A program made the position numbers and the translations under genes. From assembly GCF_900142085.1 (NCBI RefSeq), contig NZ_FQZQ01000004.1, forward strand, positions 1 to 64,000: a stretch of DNA of 64,000 bases, read 5' to 3'. Position 1 is the stretch's first letter. Each line of letters begins with the position of its first letter. This document shows positions 7,229 to 21,854 of this stretch, in pieces. The notes beneath the pieces are model-generated. The model was given only the letters and a program-made list of their open reading frames with translations, searched no databases and was not told the DNA's origin. This DNA is from Shimia gijangensis (GTDB lineage: Bacteria; Pseudomonadota; Alphaproteobacteria; Rhodobacterales; Rhodobacteraceae).

Positions 7229-8026
7229 ATGAAACGCTGGATCCCATTCGTCAAATCGCCGCCCACCGTGGCTGTTCTGCGCCTTTCCGGGGCGATTGGA
7301 ACAGGTAGCCGCGGGGCCTTAAATGATCGTGCATTGGCACCTTTGATCGAAAAGGCATTCAAACGCGGCAAACCGGCGGCTGTCGCACTTGAGATCAACT
7401 CGCCGGGTGGAAGCCCGGTACAGTCTTCGCTGATCGGCGCGCGTATTCGGCGATTGGCGGAAGAAAAAGACATCCCTGTGATCGCTTTTGTGGAAGACGT
7501 CGCAGCCTCGGGCGGCTATTGGCTGGCTGCTGCTGCGGACGAGATTATTGCCGACGAAAGTTCGGTTGTCGGTTCCATCGGCGTGATTTCAGCAAGCTTT
7601 GGCGCACAGGTTTTTCTGACCCGTCACGGGTTAGAGCGGCGTGTTCACACGGCGGGGAAATCCAAATCCATGCTGGACCCGTTTAGCCCCGAAAAACCCG
7701 ATGACGTCAAACGTCTCAAAAGCATGCTGGAACAGATCCACGCCCACTTTATTGGCCATGTCAAAGCGCGCCGTGGGCCCAAGCTTGATAATGCGCCTGA
7801 GATTTTCACCGGCGAAGTCTGGGTTGGTCGCGAAGCACAAAAGCGCGGCTTGATTGATGGTATCGGCCATTTGGTGCCGATCTTGAAAGAGCGTTACGGC
7901 AAGGACGTGCAACTGCGTCGCTATGAGGCGCGCAAACCGTTCTGGCAGAAATTCGGAGCAAGCGTTGCAGAGGATGCCCTTGCGGCAATAGAGGAACGTG
8001 CAGAATTCGCACGTTTTGGCCTGTGA
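7229..8026 (+). CDS. sppA: S49 (SppA-like) signal peptide peptidase family protein
   Basis: A 265-residue serine protease of family S49. The Ser-Lys dyad is visible: Ser in VAASGGYWLA and, 50 residues later, Lys in HTAGKSKSML, the same spacing as in short Bacillus SppA. The motif EINSPGGSPVQS is the conserved oxyanion-hole region. The reading frame is open further upstream to 7004, but that part overlaps the permease gene and is not protein-like; the ATG at 7229 (MKRWIPFVK) gives the usual length for the Rhodobacterales form. There is no clear N-terminal membrane anchor. Expected role is degradation of membrane-embedded signal peptides or membrane protein turnover. Confidence 0.88.
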   Translation: MKRWIPFVKSPPTVAVLRLSGAIGTGSRGALNDRALAPLIEKAFKRGKPAAVALEINSPGGSPVQSSLIGARIRRLAEEKDIPVIAFVEDVAASGGYWLAAAADEIIADESSVVGSIGVISASFGAQVFLTRHGLERRVHTAGKSKSMLDPFSPEKPDDVKRLKSMLEQIHAHFIGHVKARRGPKLDNAPEIFTGEVWVGREAQKRGLIDGIGHLVPILKERYGKDVQLRRYEARKPFWQKFGASVAEDALAAIEERAEFARFGL

Positions 8027-8027
8027 C

Positions 8028-8195
8028 GTGATTTTCAAGATTGTCACCCTTTTCCTGGTTGCCATGGGCGTCTTGGCGATGTTCGGGAAACTGACCTATC
8101 CGGGCAAAAAACGCCTGGATGCGGCAAAGTGCAAGAAATGCGGACGCTTTAAAATCGGGAAAGGGCCATGCCCCTGCCAGAAGGGTAAGGCATAA
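8028..8195 (+). CDS. Cys-tailed membrane microprotein, 55 aa
   Basis: A small protein starting at GTG 8028, one base after the peptidase stop, and ending two bases before the antiporter start, so it is almost certainly co-expressed with both. Residues 3-20 form one membrane helix (IFKIVTLFLVAMGVLAMFG). The tail has CKKCGRF and GPCPC, four cysteines in a CxxC...CxC arrangement that could bind a metal. I do not recognise a named family; its position between two membrane-associated proteins suggests a membrane role. An upstream ATG at 7998 lies inside the peptidase gene and is less likely. Confidence 0.75.
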   Translation: MIFKIVTLFLVAMGVLAMFGKLTYPGKKRLDAAKCKKCGRFKIGKGPCPCQKGKA

Positions 8196-8197
8196 GC

Positions 8198-9148
8198 ATG
8201 GTTTGGTTGTATGCGGGTCTTGGGCTGATCATTTTGCTTCTGGCAGGTGACGCGCTGGTGCGTGGTGCCGTAAACCTCGCATTGCGTCTCGGTATTCCAG
8301 CTCTGATCGTCAGTCTGACCATTGTGGCTTTTGGCACCTCGGCGCCCGAACTGTTGATATCAATCCAAGCAGTCCTAAAGGGTGTGCCTGGTATTGCTAT
8401 TGGTAACGTTGTTGGGTCCAACACGGCCAATATCCTGCTGGTCTTGGGCTTTCCTGCCATTCTGGCTGTACTACACACCTCATCCTGTGAATCGCGTAAA
8501 AGCTTTAAGCAAATGATCGTGGCTTCACTGGTGTTCATCGCTCTGGCGTTTCGCGGCGTGTTCGATATTTACAGCGGCACTATTTTGCTGACGATGCTGG
8601 CCTACATCCTAATTCACGCGGTGAACGACGCCAAAAACCATCGCCGTGCTTGTGGCAATGGTAGCAACGAAGACGAACCCGAAGGCGCCGACCCGGACAT
8701 GCCGTGGTGGAAAATCATGGTGTTCCTTGGGCTTGGTTTGATTGGTCTGCCACTTGGAGCGGACCTTTTGATCGACAGCGCCGAGATTTTGGCGCGCCGG
8801 TTCGGGGTCAGTGAATCTGTGATTGGTCTGACCCTGGTTGCCTTGGGCACGTCCTTGCCCGAGCTGGCCACAACCACGATGGCTGCTTTGCGTCGTCAGG
8901 CTGACGTAGCGCTGGGCAATGTCATTGGGTCCAACATGTTCAACTTGTTGGCCATTATCGGCATTGCGTCCTTTGTCGGGCCGTTGCCGGTGGACCCATC
9001 GTTCTTGTGTTTTGACCTTTGGGTCATGCTGGGGGCGTCGATCCTGTTAGTGCCGTTTGTGTTTTTCAAGCAAGACATCAATCGTGTCTGGGGTATCGCT
9101 CTGACGCTGCTCTACGTTCTTTATATTGTTTGCGTTTTCTTGTTCTAA
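8198..9148 (+). CDS. Calcium/sodium antiporter, CaCA family (YrbG-like)
   Basis: Inner membrane cation exchanger of 316 residues. It shows the duplicated alpha-repeats of the CaCA family: FGTSAPELLISIQA with GNVVGSNTANILLVLG in the first half, and LGTSLPELATTTMA with GNVIGSNMFNLLAIIG in the second. These regions hold the ion-coordinating acidic and polar residues. A hydrophilic loop (about residues 145-168, rich in Asn, Glu and Asp) separates the halves, each with about five helices. It is the last gene of the 7229-9148 run. Confidence 0.93.
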   Translation: MVWLYAGLGLIILLLAGDALVRGAVNLALRLGIPALIVSLTIVAFGTSAPELLISIQAVLKGVPGIAIGNVVGSNTANILLVLGFPAILAVLHTSSCESRKSFKQMIVASLVFIALAFRGVFDIYSGTILLTMLAYILIHAVNDAKNHRRACGNGSNEDEPEGADPDMPWWKIMVFLGLGLIGLPLGADLLIDSAEILARRFGVSESVIGLTLVALGTSLPELATTTMAALRRQADVALGNVIGSNMFNLLAIIGIASFVGPLPVDPSFLCFDLWVMLGASILLVPFVFFKQDINRVWGIALTLLYVLYIVCVFLF

Positions 9149-9497
9149 GGCAAATGCCGAACCCGGCCCAGATCGGTTGGTACTGACAAAAACTGACAGG
9201 AAAATATGAACCTAAGCTGCAAGTTTTGCACCTCTTGCCTTGGGTGTTACAAAAGAGTTACATTTTTCCTAATGTTTTCAGGCATTTGGCGAGACTAAAG
9301 TTTTTTACCCTTTGTTTTCAATGGCTTGGAAAAGCGCCCATTTTTTAGGCAAATCCTCGAAAGGGCCCAAAAACAACAAAAATTTCAGGATGCCGTAAAG
9401 ATATCTTCAGACTTATCCACAGGAATCGTGGACATGTTTTCTCTTGCGTGAGCTTGATGAAGATTGCAGGGCGCGCCAAAGAATCATATCTCAGTGA
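9149..9497. other. AT-richer intergenic region before uvrC
   Basis: This 349-bp gap is visibly richer in A and T than its surroundings, with several T and A tracts between 9220 and 9390. It holds one perfect consensus DnaA box near its end and no gene I can support. The uvrC promoter presumably lies here. Confidence 0.5.
9413..9421 (+). promoter_or_regulatory. Single consensus DnaA box
   Basis: TTATCCACA matches the DnaA box consensus exactly and sits about 75 bp before uvrC. Only one copy is present, so it is more likely a DnaA-responsive regulatory site, or chance, than part of an origin. Confidence 0.35.
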
Positions 9498-11375
9498 GTG
9501 ATGACCCAAGCCCCAGACCCAGCCGAACAAAACCCAACCGGTTATGCCTGTATCCAGAGCTATTTGAAAACGCTCGATGGCTCGCCCGGAGTCTATCGGA
9601 TGTTGGATAATCAGGCCCGGGTCCTGTATGTCGGCAAGGCGCGAAATCTGAAGGCGCGTGTGTCAAGTTATGCGCGCGCCACAGGGCACTCTGGTCGTAT
9701 TGCGCGGATGATTTCAGAAACCTCGTCGATGATGTTTCTCACGACGAAGACCGAGACCGAGGCGCTGCTGTTAGAGCAAAACTTGATCAAGCAGCTGAAG
9801 CCCAAATACAATGTGTTGTTGCGGGATGATAAAAGCTTTCCCAATATTCTGGTCAGCCGCACACATGTTTTTGCGCAAATTAAAAAGCATCGCGGCGCAA
9901 AGAAAGAAAAGGGTAGTTACTATGGCCCATTTGCCAGCGCGGGTTCGGTGAACCGAACGCTCAGCCAGTTGCAAAAAGTGTTTCTGCTGCGCAATTGTTC
10001 TGACGCGCAATTCGAAAGTCGCACGCGCCCGTGTTTGTTGTATCAAATCAAGCGCTGTTCGGGGCCCTGTGTGGGAATGATTTCCGAGGTGGATTACGCC
10101 GAAAGTGTTGGAGATGCAGAAAGATTTCTGTCTGGCCGGTCGACCCAAATCCAAGAGACATTGGCCAAACAGATGCAAGCCGCTTCTGATGCGATGGAGT
10201 TTGAACGCGCAGCATCTTTGCGGGATCGCATCCGTGCGCTGACGCAAGTGCAGACCACCCAAGGCATCAACCCGCGCAGTGTGGCTGAAGCGGATGTAAT
10301 CGCGCTTCATCTGGAAAACGGGCAAGCCTGTGTGCAGGTGTTCTTTATCCGGGCCAATCAGAACTGGGGCAATCGTGACTACTACCCGCGTGTTGGGGCC
10401 GAGATTGAGGCCGACGAGGTTTTGGAAGCCTTTATTGGTCAGTTCTATGATACCAAAGAACCGCCACGACAGTTGATCCTGTCTCATCCGATTGAAAACA
10501 CCGACTTGATGGCTGATGCCTTGGCGCAAAAGCTGGGTCGCAAGGTTGAGATTGTTGTGCCACAGCGTGGCGAAAAGGCCGAGTTGATTGCAGGGGCCGC
10601 GCGCAATGCCCGCGAAAGTTTGGCCCGCAAGATGGCCGAAACCGCGACACAAGCCAGATTGCTGAAAGAATTGGCCGAAGCGTTCGATCTGGACGGGCCA
10701 CCCAAACGAATTGAGGTTTACGACAATAGTCATATTCAGGGCACCAATGCGGTGGGGGCGATGATTGTCGCAGGCCCCGATGGGTTCATGAAAAACAGCT
10801 ATCGAAAGTTCAATATCAAAGGGGATGACCTAACCCCCGGTGATGACTTTGGCATGATGAAGGAAGTGCTGATGCGCCGCTTCAAACGGTTGCTCAAGGA
10901 AGACCCGGATCGCACAGAAGGGCACTGGCCTGATCTGCTGCTGATTGACGGTGGGGCAGGACAGGTGTCGGCCGTGGCTGAGATCATGCGTGATATGGGA
11001 GTCGAGGATATTCCAATGGTGGGAGTCGCCAAAGGTGTAGACCGCGACCATGGCAAGGAAGAGTTTCACAGGCGTGGCGAACGCCCCTTTGCCCTGCGCC
11101 GGAACGATCCGGTGCTGTACTTTGTTCAACGCTTGCGGGACGAAGCCCACAGGTTCGCGATTGGCACCCATAGAGCCAAGCGGGCCAAAGCAATCGGGGC
11201 CACGCCGTTGGATGATGTGCCGGGTGTCGGGGCCACTCGCAAACGGGCTTTGCTGGCGCACTTTGGCAGCGCAAAAGCCGTCAGTCGCGCAAACCTTGCG
11301 GACCTGAAAGCCGCAGATGGTATTTCGGATGCATTGGCTGAAACGATCTATGATTATTTTCACGAAAAAGGATGA
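9498..11375 (+). CDS. uvrC: UvrABC excinuclease subunit C
   Basis: Nucleotide excision repair nuclease that makes both incisions around a lesion bound by UvrB; 625 residues, typical length. The N-terminal GIY-YIG domain is seen at about residues 28-105 (PGVYRMLD...[14 protein letters not shown]). The UvrB-interacting UVR segment is near residue 215 ([20 protein letters not shown]). The RNase H-like endonuclease half contains [13 protein letters not shown] and [13 protein letters not shown] helix-hairpin-helix pair closes the protein ([20 protein letters not shown]). The start is GTG 9498 or the adjacent ATG 9501. Confidence 0.96.
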
Positions 11376-11507
11376 GCAAGATACTCTCGCCTTTTCGGGG
11401 TCTGGCGACCTCTGCCAGTGGCTAGGCGCGGCCTCGCTTGGCTCGGATTGGCACAAATGGCGGCGTTCGTGCTTTCCCCGCCCAACGAGTCAGGTTAGGA
11501 ATAACTC

Positions 11508-12167
11508 ATGAAATGGAACATCCCAAATATCCTGTCTGTAATGCGGCTTGTCGCGGCCCCTATGCTCGCGGTTATGTTCCTGTATTTCACACGACCTTAC
11601 GCTGATTGGTTCGCGCTGTGTCTGTTTATCGTCGCCTCTGTGACGGATTGGTTTGACGGCTATCTGGCGCGTGCCTGGGGCCAGGAAACCAAAATGGGTG
11701 CGATGATCGACCCGATAGCGGACAAAGCCATGGTGGTGATCGCCCTGATGGTGATTGTGGGCTATTCATCCATGTCACCCTGGTTGGTTCTGCCGGCTAC
11801 GGTCATCCTGTTCCGCGAAGTTTTTGTTTCTGGCCTACGAGAGTATCTGGGCGACGTAGCTGGTACGCTTAAGGTCACAAAGCTGGCCAAGTGGAAAACC
11901 GCAACCCAGATGATCGCAATCACTTTTCTTTTCGCCCAGGGCGTATTTGAACACTATCTCGGCATGTCGACATTGGGCATGGATGCAGACATCGTTTCCC
12001 AAATCCTTGGGGGCGAGATCAAAGACAGCCATGGATTGATGTGGAAACTGGACGGCATGGTTTGGTCCGGATGGGCCGGAATGGTGCTTTTGTGGGTTGC
12101 GGCTGCTTTGACGGCCATTACCGGGCTTGATTACTTCCGCAAGGCGGCGCCGCATCTGAAGGATTGA
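11508..12167 (+). CDS. pgsA: CDP-diacylglycerol-glycerol-3-phosphate 3-phosphatidyltransferase
   Basis: Inner membrane enzyme making phosphatidylglycerol phosphate, the committed step to phosphatidylglycerol and cardiolipin; 219 residues. The CDP-alcohol phosphotransferase signature D-G-x2-A-R-x8-G-x3-D-x3-D is present as DGYLARAWGQETKMGAMIDP followed by IADK, with about five membrane helices. It heads a cluster with moaD and moaE, an arrangement common in Rhodobacterales although the functions are unrelated. A 132-bp gap separates it from uvrC. Confidence 0.95.
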   Translation: MKWNIPNILSVMRLVAAPMLAVMFLYFTRPYADWFALCLFIVASVTDWFDGYLARAWGQETKMGAMIDPIADKAMVVIALMVIVGYSSMSPWLVLPATVILFREVFVSGLREYLGDVAGTLKVTKLAKWKTATQMIAITFLFAQGVFEHYLGMSTLGMDADIVSQILGGEIKDSHGLMWKLDGMVWSGWAGMVLLWVAAALTAITGLDYFRKAAPHLKD

Positions 12168-12172
12168 ATGGC

Positions 12173-12424
12173 ATGAAACTCGATATTCTCTATTTCGCTT
12201 GGGTGCGTGAGCGGATTGGGCTGCCAAAGGAAAAGCTTGAAACCAGCGCTGCAACAGTCATGGACCTCGTTGAAGAGTTGCGCACCCGGGAAGAGCGATA
12301 TGCCATGGCGTTTTCAGATTTGACAGCGCTTCGGGTGGCGATTGATCAGGAACTGACCGACTTTGATGCGGCCTTGGACGGCGCGCGTGAAGTGGCGTTT
12401 TTCCCCCCCATGACCGGAGGCTGA
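12173..12424 (+). CDS. moaD: Molybdopterin synthase sulfur carrier subunit
   Basis: Small ubiquitin-like sulfur carrier, 83 residues, that delivers sulfur from its thiocarboxylated C-terminus to precursor Z in molybdopterin synthesis. The protein begins MKLDILYFAWVRERIG and ends in the essential Gly-Gly (FFPPMTGG). An ATG at 12164 that overlaps the pgsA stop is an alternative start; the ATG at 12173 gives the usual family N-terminus. moaE follows after four bases. Confidence 0.94.
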   Translation: MKLDILYFAWVRERIGLPKEKLETSAATVMDLVEELRTREERYAMAFSDLTALRVAIDQELTDFDAALDGAREVAFFPPMTGG

Positions 12425-12428
12425 GGCC

Positions 12429-12872
12429 ATGCGCATTGCTGTGCAATCTGACCCCTTTGATCTGGGAAAAGAATCCGAAGATTTTGCTGCGGGTCACACC
12501 GATATGGGCGCGATTGTCACCTTCGCAGGTGTTGTGCGAGATATTGAGGGCGACACGCTGGATCGCATGGTGATTGAGCATTACCCTGGCATGACCGAAA
12601 AGGCGCTGATAAAGATCGCGTCTGAAGCCCAAGAGCGTTGGAGCCTTGGCGACGTGCTGGTGATTCACCGCTACGGCGATATGCGACCCGGCGACAGGAT
12701 CATGATGGTGGCCACAGCGGCACCACATCGCAAAGATGCGTTTGAAGCCGCCGAGTACCTTATGGACTATCTGAAGTCCCGAGCCCCCTTTTGGAAGCAG
12801 GAATTTACCGCTGACGGAGTGGAATGGGTTTCTGCCAAGAGTGAAGATGAAGACGCGTTGGGGCGCTGGTAA
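12429..12872 (+). CDS. moaE: Molybdopterin synthase catalytic subunit
   Basis: Catalytic half of molybdopterin synthase, 147 residues, forming a heterotetramer with MoaD. The sequence GAIVTFAGVVRD near residue 34 and the catalytic-region lysines in SRAPFWKQE near residue 118 are family hallmarks. It is translationally close to moaD (4 bp). The remaining cofactor genes in this window, moaB and mobA-mobB-moeA, lie 18 and 33 kb away. Confidence 0.95.
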   Translation: MRIAVQSDPFDLGKESEDFAAGHTDMGAIVTFAGVVRDIEGDTLDRMVIEHYPGMTEKALIKIASEAQERWSLGDVLVIHRYGDMRPGDRIMMVATAAPHRKDAFEAAEYLMDYLKSRAPFWKQEFTADGVEWVSAKSEDEDALGRW

Positions 12873-13168
12873 GCTTGGACTGAATGCCTGCTTTGAGCCC
12901 CAAACTGAAAAGTGTTGCAACTCGCACTGACGGCCCAAAAGGGCGGATTGCGAACATTCTTTGCAAGAAGGTAGTGGGGCAACCGTCGGGACAAGAGCTA
13001 GTTTCCGTTGCACTAGTGCCACTGGCCGAATTTCTGCTGCAAATTACCAGAGTTGTGGAAGAACTTATGCCGATCGGTTCAGTCTACAGGAAACAAGAAA
13101 TTGTCTGACTGACGCAATGTCGCGTTCGAGTTGCAGATTGCTGGTTGACGCAAGGCCAGTTCCAAATT

Positions 13169-13450
13169 TTAGAAGTCATCAAATTCCGGGACAATGCCGA
13201 GCCTTACAAGGAAACTTGGCATTCCAACTTCGCCACTGTTTTGGTCCTCGCGAACCATATATGCATCGGCACCCACGCAATCTTCGGACTGAGCTTCTCT
13301 TTCGGCTCTGTTTTGTGCCTCTGACGCCGAGGTGTATTCAAATTGCTTAGCAATTTTCAGACTTGTTTGCCCATCACGCCCGGGCTTGTGTTCCACATAT
13401 GTTTGGCAGATGTAGTGAACTTTTTCTGAGTTATGGTCTGATTTCGTCAT
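13169..13450 (-). CDS. Conserved-looking hypothetical protein, 93 aa
   Basis: I do not recognise this protein. It is hydrophilic, 93 residues, without signal peptide or membrane segment. The start ATG at 13450 is preceded by AAGGA at good spacing, which supports it as a real gene. Composition is rich in Glu, Ser and Gln in the middle (TSASEAQNRAEREAQSED), with a more hydrophobic end (MPSFLVRLGIVPEFDDF). It is the last gene of the minus-strand accessory block, about 75 bp downstream of the racemase-like gene, and may share its transcript. Confidence 0.6.
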   Translation of the reverse strand: MTKSDHNSEKVHYICQTYVEHKPGRDGQTSLKIAKQFEYTSASEAQNRAEREAQSEDCVGADAYMVREDQNSGEVGMPSFLVRLGIVPEFDDF

Positions 13451-13526
13451 AGCTGGATCCTTGGGCAGAGTAGTGGCGCGAGTATTGTCAGAAAGAAAAA
13501 ATGTGCCCCTCCAAGGAAAGGCAGCC

Positions 13527-14642
13527 TTACACGAGCGTCAAAGTTGGGCGGCTGTGCTTCGTGGAAATCGACTTCAACAGTGGCGCGTCTCCAAGCAACC
13601 TTATGGCGATGTTGGGCGCGGCCATTGCCCGCATCAATGCGCCGTAGTTCATGTGGAATTTCACCTCGTTTCCAACGTGCAAGTGAGATTTGGGGTTCGT
13701 TATAATGGTATGGTCGCTTGTCGCGCCGACAAACCTGATACACACAGGCATTGTCAATCCGCTGAGATCCGTATCCTGAACCCCAAGAGCAAGGATAGAA
13801 CGCGCGTTCTGAGAGTTTTGTGCAACGAGGTGTCGAGCGTCAAAACAAGGGCCCCTGTCTGCCACAGAAGCTGGGTTTGTTTTGGTTTCGATAACCTCGG
13901 CGATAAGAATAAAGGCATCCGTGTAAAGGCCGGAAATTTGTTTGCCTGTTACTGGGTCTACGCCCAAAAGAATGGCCTCACCCAACCGCAGTTCATTGAT
14001 GCGTCCAATGTGACTTTGGCCCATCGCCCAAGGCAAATTGGCGGAGTTCCCACCCGAAACAATTTCCAGAGGTGCTTCGCGTCTCCGGTCAATTGACATC
14101 GCAAGCTTAGACAAATTGGCCATTTGTGTTGCATCGGGTACAAGACCGCCAAGACAAGCAAAATTGGCTCCGATCCCTTTGAGTGAAACACCCGGCATCC
14201 CGTCAACTTCTTTCGCAATCACACCAAGATGATCTGGAGAAATCCCTTCACGCATATCGCCCATTTCGACCATCAGAATGACCCCGTGGGTTTTTTGTGC
14301 TCGGACGGCTGCTGCAGAAAGGCCTGCTATGACGGACAATTCGGTATTGCAGCTGGCTTCACAAACCGAGACGACTTGTTCCACCTGGCTTAGCATCGGC
14401 GTGCGGATCAACGTGATCGGTGCCTTGATGCCCGATTTACGCATCTTACCGACATTGCTGATCCGCGCATCTGCAAGGCCCAAAGCCCCCCCACCAATCA
14501 TCGCCTGGGCGATAGCCGCATTTCCGCAAACAGCTTTTGTTACACCCAATACAGCAATACCAAGAGGCTCTAGACGCTTCACAAGGCTTTGCGTGTTGTG
14601 GCGTATCTTGGCCAGATCAACTTCGATGCGGGGTGCATTCAT
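13527..14642 (-). CDS. Ornithine/alanine racemase-family PLP enzyme
   Basis: A 371-residue fold-III PLP enzyme resembling ornithine racemase Orr and YhfX. Matching segments, in order, are the PLP-lysine region GVTKAVCGN (Lys36), LIRTPMLSQVE, a NTEL segment, MVEMGDMREGI, KGIGANFACLGG, IVSGGNSANLP, LRLGEAILLG, ILALGVQDTD, GATSDHTII and MNYGALMRAM. These correspond to the barrel and C-terminal catalytic parts of the family, so an active amino acid racemase or epimerase is likely; ornithine, alanine or another amino acid cannot be distinguished. It overlaps the DUF1611 gene upstream by four bases, showing tight coupling of the pair. Confidence 0.85.
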   Translation of the reverse strand: MNAPRIEVDLAKIRHNTQSLVKRLEPLGIAVLGVTKAVCGNAAIAQAMIGGGALGLADARISNVGKMRKSGIKAPITLIRTPMLSQVEQVVSVCEASCNTELSVIAGLSAAAVRAQKTHGVILMVEMGDMREGISPDHLGVIAKEVDGMPGVSLKGIGANFACLGGLVPDATQMANLSKLAMSIDRRREAPLEIVSGGNSANLPWAMGQSHIGRINELRLGEAILLGVDPVTGKQISGLYTDAFILIAEVIETKTNPASVADRGPCFDARHLVAQNSQNARSILALGVQDTDLSGLTMPVCIRFVGATSDHTIITNPKSHLHVGNEVKFHMNYGALMRAMAAPNIAIRLLGDAPLLKSISTKHSRPTLTLV

Positions 14643-15838
14643 TCAGCAGCCACCTCTGGCTTTTGATGCAGTCCTGGAAATGCAGACAGAACGAACCGGA
14701 CCAAATGCTCAGTTGGACACGCAAGAGCATCGGTAACTGGCAATTCAAGCCTTTGACTGTATGCCGTGATGGCGGTTGTGATCGCTGCCTCTGACATACC
14801 TTCGTGATTGATCGTTAGGCCGATCACCTTGGTATCGGCAAAGGATTCTATTAGGGCAATCTCAGTTGCAGGGTCAGGCATGGGCATATCGGGAAAGTCG
14901 CAACGATGTACGCGCTCAGGAGCGTGTTGAAGGATGACCGCGTCGGGTTGGCTGCCCCGCAGAATGAATGCCGACGTGCAAAAAGCCGGATGGCTAAGGG
15001 CCCCTTGGCCTTCAATCAGGATAACATCCGGTTGTTCACCGTCAGATGCTGCGACGATGGCGCCCTCCAACTCTCCACAACAGAACTGAGGTGGAACCGC
15101 GTCCATTGCCACACCATATTTTGCACCCTGCATAAGCCCCGTCTGACCGGTGCCAACAAGAACGGTTTTGATGTTCAGAGCATTCAAAGCCTGTGCAAGA
15201 ACGGTTGCAGTTGTCCGTTTACCTATGGCGCAGTCGGTGCCAAGAACGGCGATTCGAACCGCTTGGACATCCGCAACACTACCGTCAAAAAGGCGCATGT
15301 CTTTGCTGAGTTTTGGTTTGCGAATGTCGCGGATGGTGACACCGTTAGACTTGGCAAACTTTGCAATTTCAGTGTCATCACTCAGGTATTCATGTAACCC
15401 GCTGACAATGTTCATGCCAAGGGCAATGGCATCCAAAACGACATCCCTGTCTGTCTCGGACAGCTTGCCGGTGGAAGGCGCCATTCCGTAGATCATCGTA
15501 TTGGGAATCGCTGGCTCATGGACAACCGCAGCTTCGAGGGTCGAGAATATGGGCACATTGTTGATGATACCGTCCAGAATCTGACCGCTATCTGACCCGC
15601 CATATTCGCTATCGATCACCGAAACGATGCGGTAGGCCTGCGAGTGTCGGACAAGTCCATTTGCCGTTTTGCCGTCAATCTTTGAAAAATTCCCTTCGCA
15701 ATACACAATCGCAGTGGGTGCTTTAGAGATATGTAGTTTGGGTGTGATGTTCGCAGAAGCGACAAGATTGCAGAAAGGTGTTTGTTTACCCTTGGCATTC
15801 CCCAAAGTGGTGGGCGCTGCTTCAATTTCATGTTCCAT
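14639..15838 (-). CDS. DUF1611 (DgcN-like) protein
   Basis: A 399-residue protein of the DUF1611 family. It has the N-terminal Rossmann-like domain (about 35-185) and a C-terminal P-loop-like domain starting GTDCAIGKRTTA (Gly200), followed by VGTGQTGLMQGAKYG and VILIEGQGALSHPAF. From memory, the related marine enzyme DgcN acetylates D-glutamate and works with the racemase DgcA. This copy is about 60 residues longer than I expect for DgcN, mostly at the N-terminus, and is coupled to a PLP racemase rather than to the usual DgcA, so the substrate may differ. The last bases overlap the racemase start (ATGA type). Confidence is high for the family and low for the reaction. Confidence 0.82.
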   Translation of the reverse strand: MEHEIEAAPTTLGNAKGKQTPFCNLVASANITPKLHISKAPTAIVYCEGNFSKIDGKTANGLVRHSQAYRIVSVIDSEYGGSDSGQILDGIINNVPIFSTLEAAVVHEPAIPNTMIYGMAPSTGKLSETDRDVVLDAIALGMNIVSGLHEYLSDDTEIAKFAKSNGVTIRDIRKPKLSKDMRLFDGSVADVQAVRIAVLGTDCAIGKRTTATVLAQALNALNIKTVLVGTGQTGLMQGAKYGVAMDAVPPQFCCGELEGAIVAASDGEQPDVILIEGQGALSHPAFCTSAFILRGSQPDAVILQHAPERVHRCDFPDMPMPDPATEIALIESFADTKVIGLTINHEGMSEAAITTAITAYSQRLELPVTDALACPTEHLVRFVLSAFPGLHQKPEVAAE

Positions 15839-15915
15839 AATTAATCCTTTGCATTGCTAACGCACCGAGCTTGTCCACCGGGCAAACAAGCAGGCAGGTT
15901 TTTGGAGTCGTGAGG

Positions 15916-15933
15916 GCAAAACCGAAGTTTTGC
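15916..15933 (-). terminator. Hairpin after the cysteine-repeat gene
   Basis: On the minus strand this is GCAAAAC-TTCG-GTTTTGC, a perfect 7-bp stem with a stable UUCG-type loop, five bases after the stop codon of the cysteine-repeat gene. There is no strong T-tract, so it may act as a 3'-end stabiliser rather than an intrinsic terminator. Confidence 0.5.
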
Positions 15934-15937
15934 AGGC

Positions 15938-16684
15938 CTAGTTATTCAGGACGCACTGGCCTTTGGATTTCTGGAAATTCCTGTGACATTCCCATCCATT
16001 GCCCGATCGGTCGAGGTGGGAATTTTCAGGCAAGCCAATGACTTCGCATCCGCCATTTGAGGCTGAAAAGCCACGCTCACACTTCCATCCAGGTCCATAA
16101 CTTGCGGCGTTAAAATATGCGTTCTGTGGAATGACCACCGCCTCGCATTTTCCGTCATTACGAAGGAAACCACGCTCGCAAACCCATCGTTTTCCCGAGC
16201 CAGATGCGTTCAGGTATGCGTTGTCTGGCACAATGATTTTAAGGCACTTACCGTCAATTTTCTGATACTCTCGCAGACAATGCCACCTCTCACCCGATGG
16301 ATCCAAATAACCACCTTCGGGCACCACAACCTTCACGCAGGAAGACTCTCGAGTTCTCCGGAAACCATGAAGGCAGCTCCATCCTTCTCCATAAGATCGG
16401 AACGTTAAGTAGGCGTTTTCTGGCACAACAATGGCCACGCATGTGTTTTCATGGGGTCGAAAAGCAACGTCACATTCCCACCCACTTCCGTAGGACTTGG
16501 CGTGCGCGTTGTCTGGCATGACGCCAGTAGAAGATTGCGCAAGTACTGGGCTGATCACAAGAAACGACAGGCAAACTGTTAATGTCCAAACCGAAACCCA
16601 GGACGTTGTGCCAAAGTGCCTTGGTATTGTAAGGCGTGCTGAAAGTGCAGCACGCCTCAGATGAAGAATGGCCCTAGGACGCAT
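15938..16684 (-). CDS. Secreted protein with six Cys-pair repeats
   Basis: A 248-residue exported protein. A signal peptide with a long basic N-region ends near residue 50 (LSFLVISPVLAQ). The mature part is six tandem units of 30-35 residues of pattern [VI]P-x-N-A-Y-L ... S-x-G-x-G-W-x-C-x3-F/Y ... C-x-x-[VI], each with one Trp and two Cys, giving twelve cysteines likely paired within units. Unit starts include VMPDNAH, VVPENAYL, VVPEGGYL, IVPDNAYL, VIPQNAYF and GLPENSHL. Function is unknown; a cell-surface or periplasmic binding role is plausible. The ATG at 16684 follows GAGGGG and overlaps the upstream gene end, suggesting coupling. Confidence 0.75.
   Translation of the reverse strand: MRPRAILHLRRAALSARLTIPRHFGTTSWVSVWTLTVCLSFLVISPVLAQSSTGVMPDNAHAKSYGSGWECDVAFRPHENTCVAIVVPENAYLTFRSYGEGWSCLHGFRRTRESSCVKVVVPEGGYLDPSGERWHCLREYQKIDGKCLKIIVPDNAYLNASGSGKRWVCERGFLRNDGKCEAVVIPQNAYFNAASYGPGWKCERGFSASNGGCEVIGLPENSHLDRSGNGWECHRNFQKSKGQCVLNN
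16632..16657 (-). other. Perfect 10-bp hairpin inside signal-peptide coding region
   Basis: AGGCGTGCTG and CAGCACGCCT flank a six-base loop. The structure starts 27 bases into the cysteine-repeat coding sequence and about 17 bases past the stop of the upstream gene. It could attenuate expression of the repeat protein relative to its upstream neighbours. Confidence 0.6.
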
Positions 16685-17027
16685 CCAAATCCAGCCCCTC
16701 AATACAGGCAACCGCAAGATCAGAGTTTGGCTTTTCAGTTCCGGGAGGTGTTGCCCAACCAGCTTCCATGACCGCCTTGCGACGGGTATATCCAGTGGCC
16801 TTTCGAATTGTTGCCAGTTTCCCGATCCGATCAGGATCGGAAGCAGCCATATCCAGACACATTGGCACCATAGCTTTGGTCACTTCTTCGTTGGCAAAGG
16901 TTTTTGCCATTTTTGTGGCGGTACCGCCGGTTGTCCATCCGCCCCAAGAAAAGCCTAGGAAAGTCGCGGCAATAGCGCCGACAACGACGCCGTAAACGCC
17001 GGGTTTAGTCCATTCAGGTAAGTTCAT
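16674..17027 (-). CDS. Membrane-anchored hypothetical protein, 117 aa
   Basis: A small protein with one membrane helix (about residues 10-32, GVYGVVVGAIAATFLGFSWGG) and a soluble C-terminal part containing VPMCLDMAASDPDR and RRKAVMEAGWATPPGTEKPN. It resembles a hypothetical family I associate with Rhizobiales and Rhodobacterales, but no function is known. It overlaps the gene upstream by four bases and the gene downstream by eleven, so it is in the middle of a coupled run. Confidence 0.75.
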   Translation of the reverse strand: MNLPEWTKPGVYGVVVGAIAATFLGFSWGGWTTGGTATKMAKTFANEEVTKAMVPMCLDMAASDPDRIGKLATIRKATGYTRRKAVMEAGWATPPGTEKPNSDLAVACIEGLDLDAS

Positions 17028-17329
17028 TTTTGATCCTTTGACGGAGAAAGCGCCGCCTCACTGTTTTTTTGATTGTTTGAATTCAGTTGGTCCTGCATCA
17101 GAGCGGTCTCAAGATCGCGATGATCTACTTTGAGAAGCTCAGGGTCGCCATTCCGCCCAAGAACTAAGAGGTGTGTTGCAATCCTTCGGGATGCCGTAAA
17201 ACTACTCCCCTCCAGTACGTCATCTTCAGCAAACACTTCGTAATTGCCTGCAGGTAGTGCATCTTTGTGCTCGCCAATCACAAACGGGTAAAGAAACGTC
17301 ACAAAGGACGCGGTCGTGCTCGATGACAT
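17024..17329 (-). CDS. Hypothetical protein, 101 aa
   Basis: Unrecognised protein of 101 residues starting MSSSTTASFVTFLYPF. I choose ATG 17329, preceded by GGAAGG seven bases away, over the longer frame from 17359. The sequence GEHKDALPAGNYEVFAEDDV looks like a beta-rich domain; the C-terminal 30 residues are hydrophilic and Gln/Asn/Ser-rich. It is the first gene of the minus-strand run 17329-15938 and overlaps the next by four bases. Confidence 0.6.
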   Translation of the reverse strand: MSSSTTASFVTFLYPFVIGEHKDALPAGNYEVFAEDDVLEGSSFTASRRIATHLLVLGRNGDPELLKVDHRDLETALMQDQLNSNNQKNSEAALSPSKDQK

Positions 17330-17359
17330 CGGCAGCCTTCCAATACGCTTGGCCCCCAA

Positions 17360-17771
17360 AAAGGGCTAAGACACTGAATTTTCATGATGGAGGGAAGCAA
17401 CTTGGCTCGGCAGGCAAAACGCCTGAACAGCTGAAAACGACTATCCCTTGCAAGAGATACATAGAGGATTACTTCCATTTTTACAATCGAAAGTAATTTC
17501 GGCAGTTGCGTTCGGGCTGTATGCTGTTCGTTTTCGCTGAAGTGCTAGTGTTTGAAAATAGATCATTTTTCACACTGTTGAAGGTGTAACGGAAAGTTTT
17601 CACCTACAGAATTACAATGGCTGCGCTATGGCACCGGTAAACGAAATGAATGCCGGTTTTGAACCGGAAGTACCAATCAAATCGATCAAGGTTAATGACC
17701 GTTTTTTCCGTTTAGCGGACCTTTGAAACACCACGAACTCTCAGAAACAGGCCCCATTTACTGACCGCCTG
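17360..17771. other. 412-bp intergenic region, palindromes only
   Basis: The gap is visibly lower in GC than its neighbours. It contains a perfect CCGGTT-TTG-AACCGG inverted repeat at 17653-17667, a candidate operator, and an imperfect TGAAAA/TTTTCA dyad near 17555. The plus-strand frame ending at 17496 has a tail faintly reminiscent of a transposase end but nothing more. No gene is called. Confidence 0.4.
17653..17667. promoter_or_regulatory. Palindrome CCGGTT-TTG-AACCGG, candidate operator
   Basis: Perfect 6-3-6 inverted repeat in the large gap between two minus-strand gene groups. It lies about 325 bp from the start of the 101-residue protein gene and downstream of the coiled-coil protein gene. 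A regulator is not identifiable. Confidence 0.25.
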
Positions 17772-18095
17772 TTAGCCATTAGCACGCTCAATGTGGCTGC
17801 GCATTTCTTCGGCTTCGTGGCGTGCATCGCGCAGACCTTCCATGGCGGCGGACAACTCAGCTTCGGTCTGGGCCAGCTGGTTGGTCAGCTCAGCTTCGCG
17901 CTGTTGCAGATAAGTGATTGCTTGATCGCGGGTCTCTTCTGCTTCGTGCAATTCCTGGCTCATACGCTCGAGCTGGTCGACATCCGCCTGAGACACACGG
18001 GTGAAGCGGTGGATCAGCCAGTTGGCAAACCACCCCATGCAGAACGCCACGAAAAGAATGATCGCAGTGGTGATGATAAACTCAATTCTGGTCAT
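17772..18095 (-). CDS. Membrane-anchored coiled-coil protein, 107 aa
   Basis: A 107-residue protein with an N-terminal membrane helix (residues 5-27, EFIITTAIILFVAFCMGWF) and a long heptad-rich coiled coil (about 38-104, rich in Glu, Gln, Ala and Leu). The start ATG 18095 follows AGGAGA. It overlaps the OmpA-family gene by 14 bp, so the two are probably made together; a periplasmic or cytoplasmic scaffold for the OmpA-like partner is a reasonable guess. I do not recognise a named family. Confidence 0.8.
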   Translation of the reverse strand: MTRIEFIITTAIILFVAFCMGWFANWLIHRFTRVSQADVDQLERMSQELHEAEETRDQAITYLQQREAELTNQLAQTEAELSAAMEGLRDARHEAEEMRSHIERANG

Positions 18096-20079
18096 CGGTG
18101 GTCTCCTGCTGGGTGGTCTCTGCAGCGTCTTGTGTCGTTGTGTCAGAGGCAGCCGCGTCGGTCGTTTCTGCCGTGGCCGTTTCACTCGTGTCGATTGACG
18201 GCTCCGTACTTGGTGCGGGAGCAGATTGCTCGGCTTCTTCCAGCGCCGTGGTTTCTTCCACGATTGGTTCAGGACGCACCAAAACAAACTCAATGCGGCG
18301 GTTGGCCTCGCGACCCTCCTCGGTCTCATTGTCAGCGATGGGTTGGCTTTCACCATACCCTTTGGCCGAATAGCTGCTGGTCAGCATACGCCGTTCATGC
18401 AGTGCATTCAGGACTGACTGAGCACGCGTTTGGCTGAGCGCCTGGTTCATTTCTTCACGGCCCTGACTGTCGGTATGGCCTTGAATCTCAAGTTTTACGT
18501 CGGCGCATTCCGTCAGGACTTCTGCAATTTGATCAATAATGGGCTCTGCACTTTCATCCAGTGTGCCGGACCCCGGTTCAAACGTAATCTTTTGGTCTTT
18601 GAGGACTGCCCGCGCAGCCAATTCGCATTCTTCTGGTGTGGGCAACTGCGCGACCGGGTCAAGTTTTTCCTGATAAGCAACGTCGATGCTGTATTTGTCC
18701 GATTGCGACAGGCGGCTCGAAAGTAGCTGAGAAATCCGTGCGTTTGCTTCCGGGTCGCCGGTTTGCCCGCGCACTGCAAGGCTGTCAGGCGTGATTATCA
18801 GAGCGCCATTGTGCAATTCTGACAAGGCATCTAGTCCCGCCATGACCCGCAAAGTCCAGGTGGCAGGCAGTGCGTCGTCCAAACGGGCGGCCATATGCAC
18901 AGCCTCGCTCCCGAACCGCGCGCGTGCATAGTTTGATGCGGTGTCGCGGCTAAGATCATCTGGCAGCCGCCCACGCAATTGCAAAAGACCTTCGGGACTA
19001 AGCGTCGCTGTGAACTCGGGAATACTGCCTTCTTCGGTTACGACTTCTGGTTCGGGCAAGGTCGAGTGCAGGGCGAAAACGTCTGGTAAAGATGTTTCCA
19101 TTTCACCGATGACCCGGTCGAAAACTGCTTGATCCGTTCCTTCCAGAGCAACCAAGGTGATATCGGCGTCTGAAAAGGTGACTGACCCGCCGCCAAGCCC
19201 GGCGACGCCATTTAACGCAATGACAACGGCATCGGCCCAAGCAGGGGTCGGTACGCCTAACCCGATTGTGCAGCTTACTCCCGTTGCAAGACCGGCAACC
19301 TTGGCAGTCTCGATGATGCGCCTTTGAGCGTCTTCGGTATCCGCCGAGCAGGCGTCAAATCGCGCACCGTTCTCGTCTTTGACGAAGCGCAAAGTGAAGG
19401 GGGTGATCACAGGCCGAGGGGCGGTGATTGCCAGCGTAAGTTCCAGATTGGCCGAGGCTTTGCGGCGCAGTTTGGCCTCGATCTCGTCGCGATGTGCACG
19501 GCTGTCGCTCATGGCGGTGACGGACACGCGACCCGCTTCGATCGAGATTTTAGCGCGTGGCAAAAGCTGTAGCGCGTTCAGTGCAAAGGTCGTGGCCTGT
19601 GTCCAGCCTTCAGGGTGTCTGTAGTCGGCGGTTTCCAGAAAATCCGTGATCTTGGGGTCGCCATCCAGTTTGCGCAACGCCTTGAGCATTGCGGCGCGAT
19701 CCGAGCTTTCCGGGATCAGGCCGATCAATTGAATGCCTGAATCATTGCGAAGGATCTCGACTGAGAAACGAGGTGGCGCGAGATCGGCTGTGGCCTCGAC
19801 CTGCATATTGTCAATCACGCGAGCAGCGTCGACAATGCCGCCAGCGGTTGAGATGGCGCGGAACCGATTGGCCTCGGTAGGGGCCACGCCGGTCAGAAAT
19901 ACCTGCAGGCCTTCAGCGTGGACCTTGGCCCACATCATATCCTTTTCCTCAAGCGCATCTTTGACGCTACGCCGGGATGTTTCCTCGATCAGGTCGGCCG
20001 AAAAGGTGGCCGCAACGAGGCTGATTATGGCGGCAAGGCCAAACGTCGAAATGACAATAAGAAGTGATGACAGGCGCAT
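18082..20079 (-). CDS. OmpA-family protein with BON-like repeats
   Basis: A 665-residue envelope protein. It begins with a hydrophobic anchor or uncleaved signal (LLIVISTFGLAAIISLVAAT). The middle contains several BON-like units in which short hydrophobic strands alternate with helices, for example VFLTGVAPTEANRFRA and LQLRGRLPDDLSRDTASNY. The C-terminal OmpA peptidoglycan-binding domain (about 505-610) has ITFEPGSGTLDE, IQGHTDSQGREEMNQALSQ and ANRRIEFVL. A Thr/Glu/Ala-rich tail follows. Its expected role is envelope integrity, linking the inner membrane to peptidoglycan. It is conserved in Rhodobacterales in this form. Confidence 0.85.
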   Translation of the reverse strand: MRLSSLLIVISTFGLAAIISLVAATFSADLIEETSRRSVKDALEEKDMMWAKVHAEGLQVFLTGVAPTEANRFRAISTAGGIVDAARVIDNMQVEATADLAPPRFSVEILRNDSGIQLIGLIPESSDRAAMLKALRKLDGDPKITDFLETADYRHPEGWTQATTFALNALQLLPRAKISIEAGRVSVTAMSDSRAHRDEIEAKLRRKASANLELTLAITAPRPVITPFTLRFVKDENGARFDACSADTEDAQRRIIETAKVAGLATGVSCTIGLGVPTPAWADAVVIALNGVAGLGGGSVTFSDADITLVALEGTDQAVFDRVIGEMETSLPDVFALHSTLPEPEVVTEEGSIPEFTATLSPEGLLQLRGRLPDDLSRDTASNYARARFGSEAVHMAARLDDALPATWTLRVMAGLDALSELHNGALIITPDSLAVRGQTGDPEANARISQLLSSRLSQSDKYSIDVAYQEKLDPVAQLPTPEECELAARAVLKDQKITFEPGSGTLDESAEPIIDQIAEVLTECADVKLEIQGHTDSQGREEMNQALSQTRAQSVLNALHERRMLTSSYSAKGYGESQPIADNETEEGREANRRIEFVLVRPEPIVEETTALEEAEQSAPAPSTEPSIDTSETATAETTDAAASDTTTQDAAETTQQETTDDQN

Positions 20080-20138
20080 ACGGGTCGATTTACTTTTGTT
20101 GGTGGGGCCTTGTTACGACGCGGCGGCGGCGCTTGCAA

Positions 20139-21116
20139 TCACAGGAACAGCGCTACGGCGAAAAACAGCAAAGGGATCAGGCCCGTATCACGGTTTGACC
20201 GGAACAAATACAGCAGGACCTCTGGGTTTTCTGTGTTGAGGCGTCGCATCTGCCATTGCATGTGCCAACCCATGACCCATGTGCCTCCAAGCGCGACCAG
20301 CAACGACAAGGGGCTTCTGTCGGCGGCGGACAGGTAGACAGCCAAAGCCAGCAAGGTGACCGTCAGGATCAGAAATCCTTGCAGCCATTGCGGGGTCTTT
20401 TCGGCAAACAGTCGGGCTGTGGATTTCACGCCGATCAGGGCGTCATCTTCGGTGTCCTGGTGGGCATAAATCGTGTCATAGAACAAGGTCCACGAAATAC
20501 CCGCAACATAGAGTACTACAGCAGGCCATTGCAGCGTGCCGGTGTGTGCCGTCCAGGCCAGCAACGCGCCCCAGTTAAATGCGAGTCCCAAAAACACCTG
20601 AGGCCACCAGGTAAAGCGCTTTGCAAAGGGGTAGACCGCGACCGGAAGCAGGGAAAGAACCCCAAGGGAAATGGCATTTCTGTTAAAGGTAAACAAGATG
20701 CAGGCAGCTATCAGAGCTTGCACGGCCATCCAGATGCCAGCCTGTTTGGCGCTGACCTGGCCCGAAGGAATAGGGCGTGACTGGGTGCGCTCGACCTTGC
20801 CATCATAATCCCGATCAGTGATGTCATTCCATGTACAGCCAGCCCCGCGCATCAGCCAAGCCCCCATGCCACAAGCCACGGCGATCCACAGATCAAACAA
20901 AGATGCCTGACCATCGGACAGCATTGCCAGCAAAAGTCCCATCCAACAAGGTAGCAGCAGCAACCATGTGCCAATGGGACGGTCTGCACGGGACAATCGC
21001 AGATAGGGACGGGTTTTTTGGGGGGCAATATGATCCACCCAGTTTCCGGTCACTGCGTCGGAAACCTGACCACCCGTTTCGGGAGAGGGCTCTGGTGTTG
21101 AGGGCGTGTCGACCAT
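20139..21116 (-). CDS. ubiA: 4-hydroxybenzoate polyprenyltransferase
   Basis: Integral membrane prenyltransferase of ubiquinone synthesis, 325 residues from ATG 21116 (MVDTPSTPEPS). Both Asp-rich motifs for magnesium-diphosphate are present: NDITDRDYDGKVERT (about residue 110) and YAHQDTEDDALIG (about 230). Eight or nine helices are apparent. Its prenyl substrate is probably made by the polyprenyl synthase at 54 kb. It is divergent from rsmE with a 12-bp gap, so the promoters overlap the coding starts. Confidence 0.93.
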   Translation of the reverse strand: MVDTPSTPEPSPETGGQVSDAVTGNWVDHIAPQKTRPYLRLSRADRPIGTWLLLLPCWMGLLLAMLSDGQASLFDLWIAVACGMGAWLMRGAGCTWNDITDRDYDGKVERTQSRPIPSGQVSAKQAGIWMAVQALIAACILFTFNRNAISLGVLSLLPVAVYPFAKRFTWWPQVFLGLAFNWGALLAWTAHTGTLQWPAVVLYVAGISWTLFYDTIYAHQDTEDDALIGVKSTARLFAEKTPQWLQGFLILTVTLLALAVYLSAADRSPLSLLVALGGTWVMGWHMQWQMRRLNTENPEVLLYLFRSNRDTGLIPLLFFAVALFL

Positions 21117-21128
21117 ATGTAGGATTCC

Positions 21129-21854
21129 ATGAAACAGGCAAAAGTCAGATTGTATGTAGAACATGCCTTGGGGACAGGGCAATCGGTTCCTCTGGAAAGA
21201 GGTCAGGCGCATTATCTGTTTGGGGTGATGCGCATGGCGGTGGGTGATCCGGTTTTGCTGTTCAATGGACAAGATGGCGAGTGGCGCTGTATCGTCGCTC
21301 AGGCGGGAAAACGGGGTGGTGTGTTGGTCTGTGAAGAGCAAACCAAGCCTCTGCAAATGCCGCCGGATTTATGGCTGTTGTTTGCGCCGATCAAAAAAGC
21401 CCGCACAGATTTCATCGTGGAAAAAGCTGCTGAAATGGGGGCCGCGCGTATTCTGCCAGTCCAGACAGATTTCACCAATTCCGAACGTATTCGACAGGAC
21501 CGCTTGCAAGCGCATGCGGTTGAGGCCGCTGAGCAATGCGGCGGGACCTTCGTGCCCGAGGTCGCCGATCTGCAAAAACTTGATCGCCTTTTGGCGGATT
21601 GGCCCCAAGACCGTCAGTTGATGTTTTGTGACGAGGCCGAGGTGGGCAGCGCCAAGCGATTGGGTGACGCGACAGGCGACAAATGGGCGATCCTGATTGG
21701 CCCCGAAGGTGGGTTTTCGGAGGTCGAACGCAAAAGACTTACAGCTCATCCCAACGCACACATCGTTGCGCTTGGCCCGCGCATCCTGCGCGCAGATACG
21801 GCGGCTGTGGCAGCCATGACACTTTGGCAGCAAGCCCTGGGAGATTGGGTTTGA
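21129..21854 (+). CDS. rsmE: 16S rRNA (uracil-1498-N3)-methyltransferase
   Basis: SPOUT-class methyltransferase of 241 residues modifying U1498 of 16S rRNA. The family knot region is clear: AILIGPEGGFSEVERKRL near residue 185 and LGPRILRADTAAVAAM near 215. The N-terminal PUA-like part includes HYLFGVMRMAVGD and LFNGQDGEW. The start is an ATG 12 bp from the divergent ubiA start. The stop overlaps a TTG start of the next gene. Confidence 0.95.
   Translation: MKQAKVRLYVEHALGTGQSVPLERGQAHYLFGVMRMAVGDPVLLFNGQDGEWRCIVAQAGKRGGVLVCEEQTKPLQMPPDLWLLFAPIKKARTDFIVEKAAEMGAARILPVQTDFTNSERIRQDRLQAHAVEAAEQCGGTFVPEVADLQKLDRLLADWPQDRQLMFCDEAEVGSAKRLGDATGDKWAILIGPEGGFSEVERKRLTAHPNAHIVALGPRILRADTAAVAAMTLWQQALGDWV

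Follow-up and report, generated by a model that had tools for sequence, protein, structure and literature searches.

A distinct and mobile variant of the DUF1611-racemase gene pairing in Shimia gijangensis

Background

DgcN is the characterised relative among DUF1611 proteins, an N-acylating enzyme that caps D-glutamate and acts on an alpha-amine, and to our knowledge this is the single function that has been characterised for the family. Its pathway of D-glutamate catabolism, in which it is paired with the racemase DgcA, was presumably described in Pseudoalteromonas sp. CF6-2. DgcA proteins carry MR_MLE domains (Pfam) and so belong to the enolase superfamily and are not PLP enzymes. N-acetylation of the substrate poses no difficulty to an enolase-superfamily racemase; the aldimine of a PLP racemase can form only with an alpha-amine that is free. 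A DUF1611 gene paired with the gene for a PLP racemase is not described in those parts of the open-licence literature that were available, PMC6695200, PMC6143709, PMC12363236 and PMC10845958 included. Such a pair is present in the window, the stretch of 64,000 nucleotides of Shimia gijangensis DNA analysed here. Set against other pairings of DUF1611 and racemase genes it is a genuine variant, both distinct and mobile, and is of interest because the partner enzyme and the fixed positions of the DUF1611 protein differ together.

The two genes and the firmness of their pairing

The DUF1611 gene (14639..15838, minus strand) encodes a protein of 399 aa with a Rossmann-like N domain and a P-loop domain (GTDCAIGKRTTA), and is followed on the same strand by the gene for an Orr-like PLP racemase (13527..14642) of 371 aa, which carries Lys36 and ends in a short C-terminal tail with the residues LTLV. 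The genes overlap by 4 nt (14639..14642, minus strand), from which we infer that they are translationally coupled. A preliminary description of the locus gave coordinates and a four-base overlap that match both minus-strand ORFs exactly, and its naming of a DUF1611/P-loop protein and a PLP racemase with Lys36 also stands, but its statement that all Orr-like motifs are present does not, as the DAFG stretch has gone and the Orr score is below the cut-off. In Pfam the DUF1611 protein exceeds the gathering scores of both DUF1611_C (PF07755, 226.2 bits) and DUF1611_N (PF17396, 91.8 bits), while the racemase, at 89.6 bits, is over the cut-off for Ala_racemase_N and, having the PLP lysine, belongs with the fold-type III PLP racemases. 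Just 3' of the racemase stop lies a terminator-like hairpin (13504..13523, minus strand), a consensus match only, and 11 such consensus matches occur in 13000-18100 against 6.3 expected. Rfam gave nothing at gathering level in 12000-18500 and PADLOC no match for the six proteins searched. An EcfG-type (general-stress) promoter upstream of the operon was considered and found unsupported (1/79 loci against 29/2430 background stretches).

A scan of GTDB contigs yielded 236 relatives of the DUF1611 protein, and the best 80 of these, nearly all from Rhodobacterales, made up the set of loci, whose neighbours were surveyed over at most 8 kb, many contigs ending sooner. Racemase homology follows the DUF1611 gene in all of these best 80 of 236, the match being cut at or near the contig end in L031 and L077 and split in two in L066, and 77 of 79 pairs share a spacing of -4 nt between the genes, with -28 and +126 in the remaining two. 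Among 248 family genomes from 247 genera both genes occur in the identical 26, and are adjacent by coordinates in all 26, with thresholds (DUF1611 >550 bits, racemase >340 bits) that were chosen after the search at a visible gap; in one of the 26 (G324) the racemase is in two pieces. Both pair genes are decayed in genome G418, and only remnants are present in G434. The distance matrices of the two proteins are correlated (r = 0.915; 84 rows, which include one Phaeobacter locus twice, as L087 and L097) to a degree that was reached in none of 2000 permutations, and comparison with a congener copy (L003) gave dN/dS values of 0.09 for the DUF1611 gene and 0.14 for the racemase gene. The pairing is thus real and beyond chance, and the overlap and shared history of the genes suggest that the two proteins act together.

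Two diverged copies of the pair lie convergently on one contig (L026, 8001-10258 and 12122-14328) with about 2 kb between them. A MAG contig labelled Blastopirellula (L005) carries the pair with a DUF1611 identity of 76%, which reflects either transfer or mis-binning. A Roseibium plasmid (L132) holds a decayed operon: the neighbouring genes p5 and p3 are kept, DUF1611 is undetected and the racemase matches residues 219-345 only.

Relationship of the DUF1611 protein to DgcN

On the DgcN model (NF041892) the DUF1611 protein scored 174.2 bits, below the curated equivalog cut-off of 480. The source genome has a separate dgcN-dgcA pair on contig C51, where a second DUF1611 gene is followed by the gene for a 320-aa protein, and these pass both cut-offs (DgcN 556 against 480, DgcA 494 against 400), as does the CF6-2 pair (DgcN 493 against 480, DgcA 412 against 400); the DUF1611 proteins of both pairs served as positive controls for the DgcN model. 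Among the DgcN-type hits of a phylum search, 24 came with a locus (L102-L125); DgcA matches adjoin 23 of these, all but L122, and the PLP racemase adjoins none. The reverse was found at 11 further window-type loci, 10 of them distinct (L083, L084, L087, L097-L101 and L129-L131), where a PLP racemase was present in all and a DgcA match in none. A DgcA query on the best 80 of 236 contig loci gave one weak, non-adjacent match (24%, L080). In an unrooted tree of 58 rows the DUF1611 protein is separated from DgcN by a 100/100 branch and groups beside a haloarchaeal type. Score, tree position and type of partner together rule out that the pair is DgcN-DgcA, and the earlier suggestion of a variant pairing distinct from that pathway holds good, with a DUF1611 protein outside the DgcN clade and a PLP racemase as its partner. 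Among the observations that the preliminary description had listed as counting against its reading, a separate dgcN-dgcA pair in the same genome was indeed found; placement within the DgcN clade was not, and the racemase neighbour, far from being absent in relatives, is there in 80/80 of the best 80 of 236 and in 26/26 genomes.

The same description had seen a puzzle in a racemase acting on an N-acetyl substrate. This comparison fails, since DgcA is of the enolase superfamily, and the chemical conflict largely dissolves because the racemase had been treated as the equivalent of DgcA. The need of a PLP racemase for a free alpha-amine nevertheless favours an order in which the racemase acts first, or else a modification of the side chain.

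DUF1611 genes thus adjoin racemases of two unrelated kinds, enolase-type and PLP. The enolase-partnered DUF1611 rows do not form a single clade (AU p 9e-9). When the seven rows with no neighbouring racemase are set aside, the tree requires no more than one change between enolase and PLP partners. Its deep placements have to be read cautiously on account of long branches (phage L088, Streptomyces L149 and L086). When 91 PLP-partnered and 27 enolase-partnered DUF1611 proteins were compared, a shared core was evident (K57, H149, D171, R173, GTDC200-203, GK206-207, TGQ230-232, E258, EGQ276-278 and R309), together with positions that differ between the groups: Q251 and T288 in 91/91 PLP-partnered proteins against D and V, respectively, in 27/27 of the others, and H345 in 91/91 against T in 25/27. 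These group-fixed differences at 251 and 288 fit a changed substrate for the DUF1611 protein. Position 294 is R in 91/91 and H in 27/27, but R294 was rejected as a signature of the PLP-partnered group, Ava_3511 having R too.

A fold model of the DUF1611 protein (AlphaFold, 21-row alignment) was of moderate quality (pLDDT 64) and matched 2obn, 2g0t and 7xrj first, with much weaker matches to cyclic diphosphoglycerate synthetase, CoA ligases and dethiobiotin synthetase, and a weak one to HypB. That of the racemase (30-row alignment) was likewise moderate (pLDDT 66) and matched alanine racemases (best E 1.5e-13, TM about 0.4). Because both models are moderate, the fold matches are only supportive.

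The racemase

The racemase scored 284.6 on the NCBIfam Orr model (NF040742), below the cut-off of 480, compared with 367 for a member from Vibrio europaeus and 550 for the Orr of Acetoanaerobium noterae. Lys36 is invariant (84/84 alphaproteobacterial-type, 5/5 gamma-type and 4/4 Orr-type rows), and R131, SDH309-311 and Tyr333 are kept alongside it. The window clade no longer has the stretch KPSxPxGxxGxDAFG of Orr, and at two further positions, in a comparison whose Orr side consists of four sequences only, the racemases have E126 (89/89) against D (4/4 Orr-type) and W205 (87/89) against L (4/4). Score and lost motif rule out that the enzyme is Orr itself.

The C-terminus of the racemase is made up of a variable linker and a short hydrophobic tail, which ends L.[LI][VAI] in 60/84, and the N-terminus of the DUF1611 protein has a partly conserved start followed by a variable linker. 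It is possible that these two ends are docking segments. The conserved tail and the tight linkage would also be expected if the DUF1611 protein were not a metabolic enzyme at all but a P-loop protein that assists or regulates the racemase, as its chaperone or gate, and it is the case that HypB, a metallochaperone, is among the weak fold matches. This explanation seems very unlikely, as the core residues shared with DgcN are kept and DUF1611 genes occur alone in several mobile contexts.

Such racemase-less relatives nested in the window group are found on plasmids of V. coralliilyticus (L085) and V. nigripulchritudo (L086), and in seven prophage-like contigs (L134-L140). In these cases the DUF1611 protein either manages without the partner or has it encoded at a distance, and they speak against an obligate two-enzyme system. 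The V. nigripulchritudo gene (7902-9071 of L086) encodes a protein with a degenerate P-loop (GDDTTISRLSTT) and is perhaps non-catalytic. The seven prophage-like contigs are 96-99% identical where aligned and carry a window-type DUF1611 gene (51% identical); a search of them for a racemase, run without a positive control, found none, and in two (L134 and L136) cold-shock-protein-like and NhaA-antiporter-like genes, judged by eye, lie beside the DUF1611 gene. No racemase was confirmed in viral contigs. DUF1611 matches were present in 34 phage records, all named as Erwinia or Dickeya phages, and in the Dickeya jumbo phage AD1 (L088, 7174-9873) the gene is flanked by one for a putative methyltransferase and one that resembles asparagine synthase.

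Mobility and genomic context

The pair lies within a mobile unit of about 4.8 kb (12888..17670), which is 93.9% identical over 4,784 columns to a copy that sits at another place in the genome of a congener (L003, L175), and blastn against L003 gave no match outside the unit in flanks of 12-17 kb. The ends of the unit carry a 38-column imperfect direct repeat. Its right copy (12862..12899, minus strand) runs over the stop codon of an ORF (12429-12872) that was named moaE by eye, and its left copy lies at 17630..17665 on the same strand. By eye, 28 of 36 aligned bases are equal, a figure reached in none of 500 mononucleotide shuffles of segments that had been picked after an 8-mer was noticed, and the repeats look as if they were attachment or exchange sites. 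The idea that interspersed repeats account for the ends was dismissed, the right-end motif occurring once in the window. No transposase or integrase was recognised among the unit's ORFs and no tRNA was found as an insertion site in 8000-22000; of the best 80 of 236 loci, 19 have an integrase-like gene in the neighbourhood of the pair. Four congener moaE regions were read. In L172, L174 and L176 moaE is followed, after a gap of about 0.9, 2.5 and 0.25 kb respectively, by a homologue of the window sequence that lies beyond the unit, from about 17,780, while L173 shows the moaE side only. The unit is therefore absent at the moaE site in three congeners, though other sequence may occupy the gap. 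Plasmid copies of the pair are known from Phaeobacter, Ruegeria, Aliiroseovarius and four Vibrio records. On a contig labelled Hoeflea (L009, 8001-11736) the pair likewise adjoins a homologue of moaE, the two being convergent as they are in the window, with no matches to p5-p3-p2. The pair is passed horizontally among marine bacteria and is best seen as a self-contained two-enzyme module.

Four further genes accompany the pair on the minus strand, none with a Pfam family over the cut-off. Upstream lie p2 (15938..16717), with Cys-containing repeats and a signal-peptide-like start, p3 (16674..17027, 117 aa), with a membrane-segment-like N-terminus (both judged by eye), and p5 (17024..17359, 111 aa); p4 (13169..13450, 93 aa) is downstream of the racemase. 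In 81 loci (the window and the best 80 of 236) p2 was found upstream in 74, p3 in 73 and p5 in 50, and p4 downstream in 59. It might be argued that the selected function resides in p5-p3-p2 and that the pair is merely the cargo of a mobile accessory unit. The unit is indeed mobile, and p2 and p3 are present in 43 and 52 of the 248 family genomes, including 22 and 25 of the 26 with the pair (a hand count) but also 21 and 27 of the 222 without it. Against this, p5, p3 and p2 have no match upstream in 7 of the 81 loci (window and best 80 of 236), one of which, L029, has about 0.6 kb upstream, nor at five gamma-type pair loci, and with dN/dS at 0.09 and 0.14 in the pair genes the cargo explanation is highly improbable.

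The p5-p3-p2 set (15938-17359) also occurs without the pair (L152-L160), and several of those loci have, judged by eye, Crp/Fnr-like genes and a protein similar to the transglutaminase-family proteins of L087, so that the set may be read as a separate accessory island. Near the operon, 18 of the best 80 of 236 loci (L024-L080) have a gene for a BLUF blue-light sensor, and 16 of these 18 also have a 2OG-Fe(II) oxygenase gene. The presence of GroEL, HflK/HflC, Hsp20 and NhaA near the pair on plasmids hinted at a stress island, a reading that was dropped as not general: within the best 80 of 236 loci GroEL is near the pair in 3, and HflK, HflC, Hsp20 and NhaA in none.

Proposed function

The pair probably handles a D-amino acid in a manner so far undescribed. 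The scheme put forward here, which is quite possible though short of an even chance, is that the mobile two-enzyme module makes a D-amino acid and traps it. To judge from its family and PLP lysine, the racemase would convert a free amino acid between its L and D forms, and the relationship to Orr prompts the guess that this is a basic one. The DUF1611 protein would then act on the D form, with N-acylation after the manner of DgcN as the likeliest modification and some other P-loop-dependent capping as the alternative, and this would pull the reversible racemisation one way towards the capped D-amino acid. Besides the DUF1611 genes without a racemase, two observations count against this scheme: the conserved P-loop exceeds the obvious need of an acetyl-CoA enzyme, and the moderate DUF1611 fold model also resembles ATP-dependent synthetases.

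It is also conceivable, if rather unlikely, that the DUF1611 protein first or independently modifies the side chain of a diamino acid, for instance at the delta or epsilon amine, so that the alpha-amine stays free, and that the racemase then epimerises the product. PLP chemistry and the gene order, DUF1611 before racemase, would both be satisfied, and Q251, T288, E126 and W205 are compatible with a substrate that is neither D-Glu nor plain ornithine, but an action on the side chain departs from that of DgcN.

Both proteins have relatives that function in the catabolism of D-amino acids, and the pair might accordingly be an alternative to DgcN-DgcA in the catabolic salvage of environmental D-amino acids. 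One genome (G366) has a lone Orr-like gene (36%) whose neighbours are, by eye, ABC-transporter-like and agmatinase-like. Salvage is nonetheless unlikely: a reversible PLP racemase would give the L form without a DUF1611 protein, a transporter-like neighbour cluster (ABC-type ATPase, by eye) was seen in no more than 7 of the 81 loci (window and best 80 of 236), with no other such cluster, and a DgcN-type match is already present in 25/25 genus genomes, against 2/25 for the window type, DgcA having been checked in the source genome only. The scarcity of transporter-like clusters, unlike the situation in CF6-2, gives the capping scheme a weak lean towards biosynthesis. In its boldest form, which is possible but doubtful, the cassette would start from an ordinary L-amino acid and turn it into a capped D-amino acid, with a DUF1611 enzyme of new specificity trapping the D form, so that it would be the biosynthetic mirror image of DgcN-DgcA. 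An unrelated PLP racemase would have taken the place of the enolase-type one, and the product might be a new metabolite derived from a D-amino acid.

There is a temptation to assign the function of DgcN to all DUF1611 proteins, but the branch described here is clearly separate and mobile and has an unrelated racemase as its partner. The substrate, if found, would show one family of capping enzymes rewired for another D-amino acid and would caution against taking each marine DUF1611 gene for one of D-glutamate catabolism. The bounded unit, with congeners that are without it, offers a clean deletion design.

Comparison with known systems

By sequence, the nearest solved structures to the DUF1611 protein are TM0796 (2g0t, 178 bits) and Ava_3511 (2obn, 136 bits), with DgcN (7xrj) at 128 bits, yet in the alignments TM0796 and Ava_3511 have D, not Q, at the position of Q251. 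The haloarchaeal DUF1611 proteins are the sister group of the window type in the tree, but the partner of two of them (L147 and L148) is annotated as a dipeptide epimerase (that of L147 proved enolase-type in a Pfam scan), and a third (L089) has no such annotated neighbour. Orr of A. noterae resembles the racemase in being a PLP racemase with Lys36, R131, SDH and Tyr333, and the two are 33% identical; the window enzyme differs in falling below the Orr cut-off, in lacking DAFG and in having E126 and W205 for D and L, and its partner is DUF1611, whereas the A. noterae gene adjoins one that is, by eye, like that for the large subunit of D-ornithine aminomutase. DgcN-DgcA likewise has the gene for a DUF1611 enzyme with that for a racemase close by, and the DUF1611 core residues are common to both systems. 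The window protein, however, is 26-31% identical to three aligned DgcN-type proteins, the CF6-2 dgc locus has dgcR and an NhaC-family antiporter gene, and DgcA belongs to the enolase superfamily where the partner in the window is a PLP enzyme. The scheme proposed for the pair is thus similar to that of DgcN-DgcA, but the two steps would take place in the reverse order and with a non-homologous racemase.
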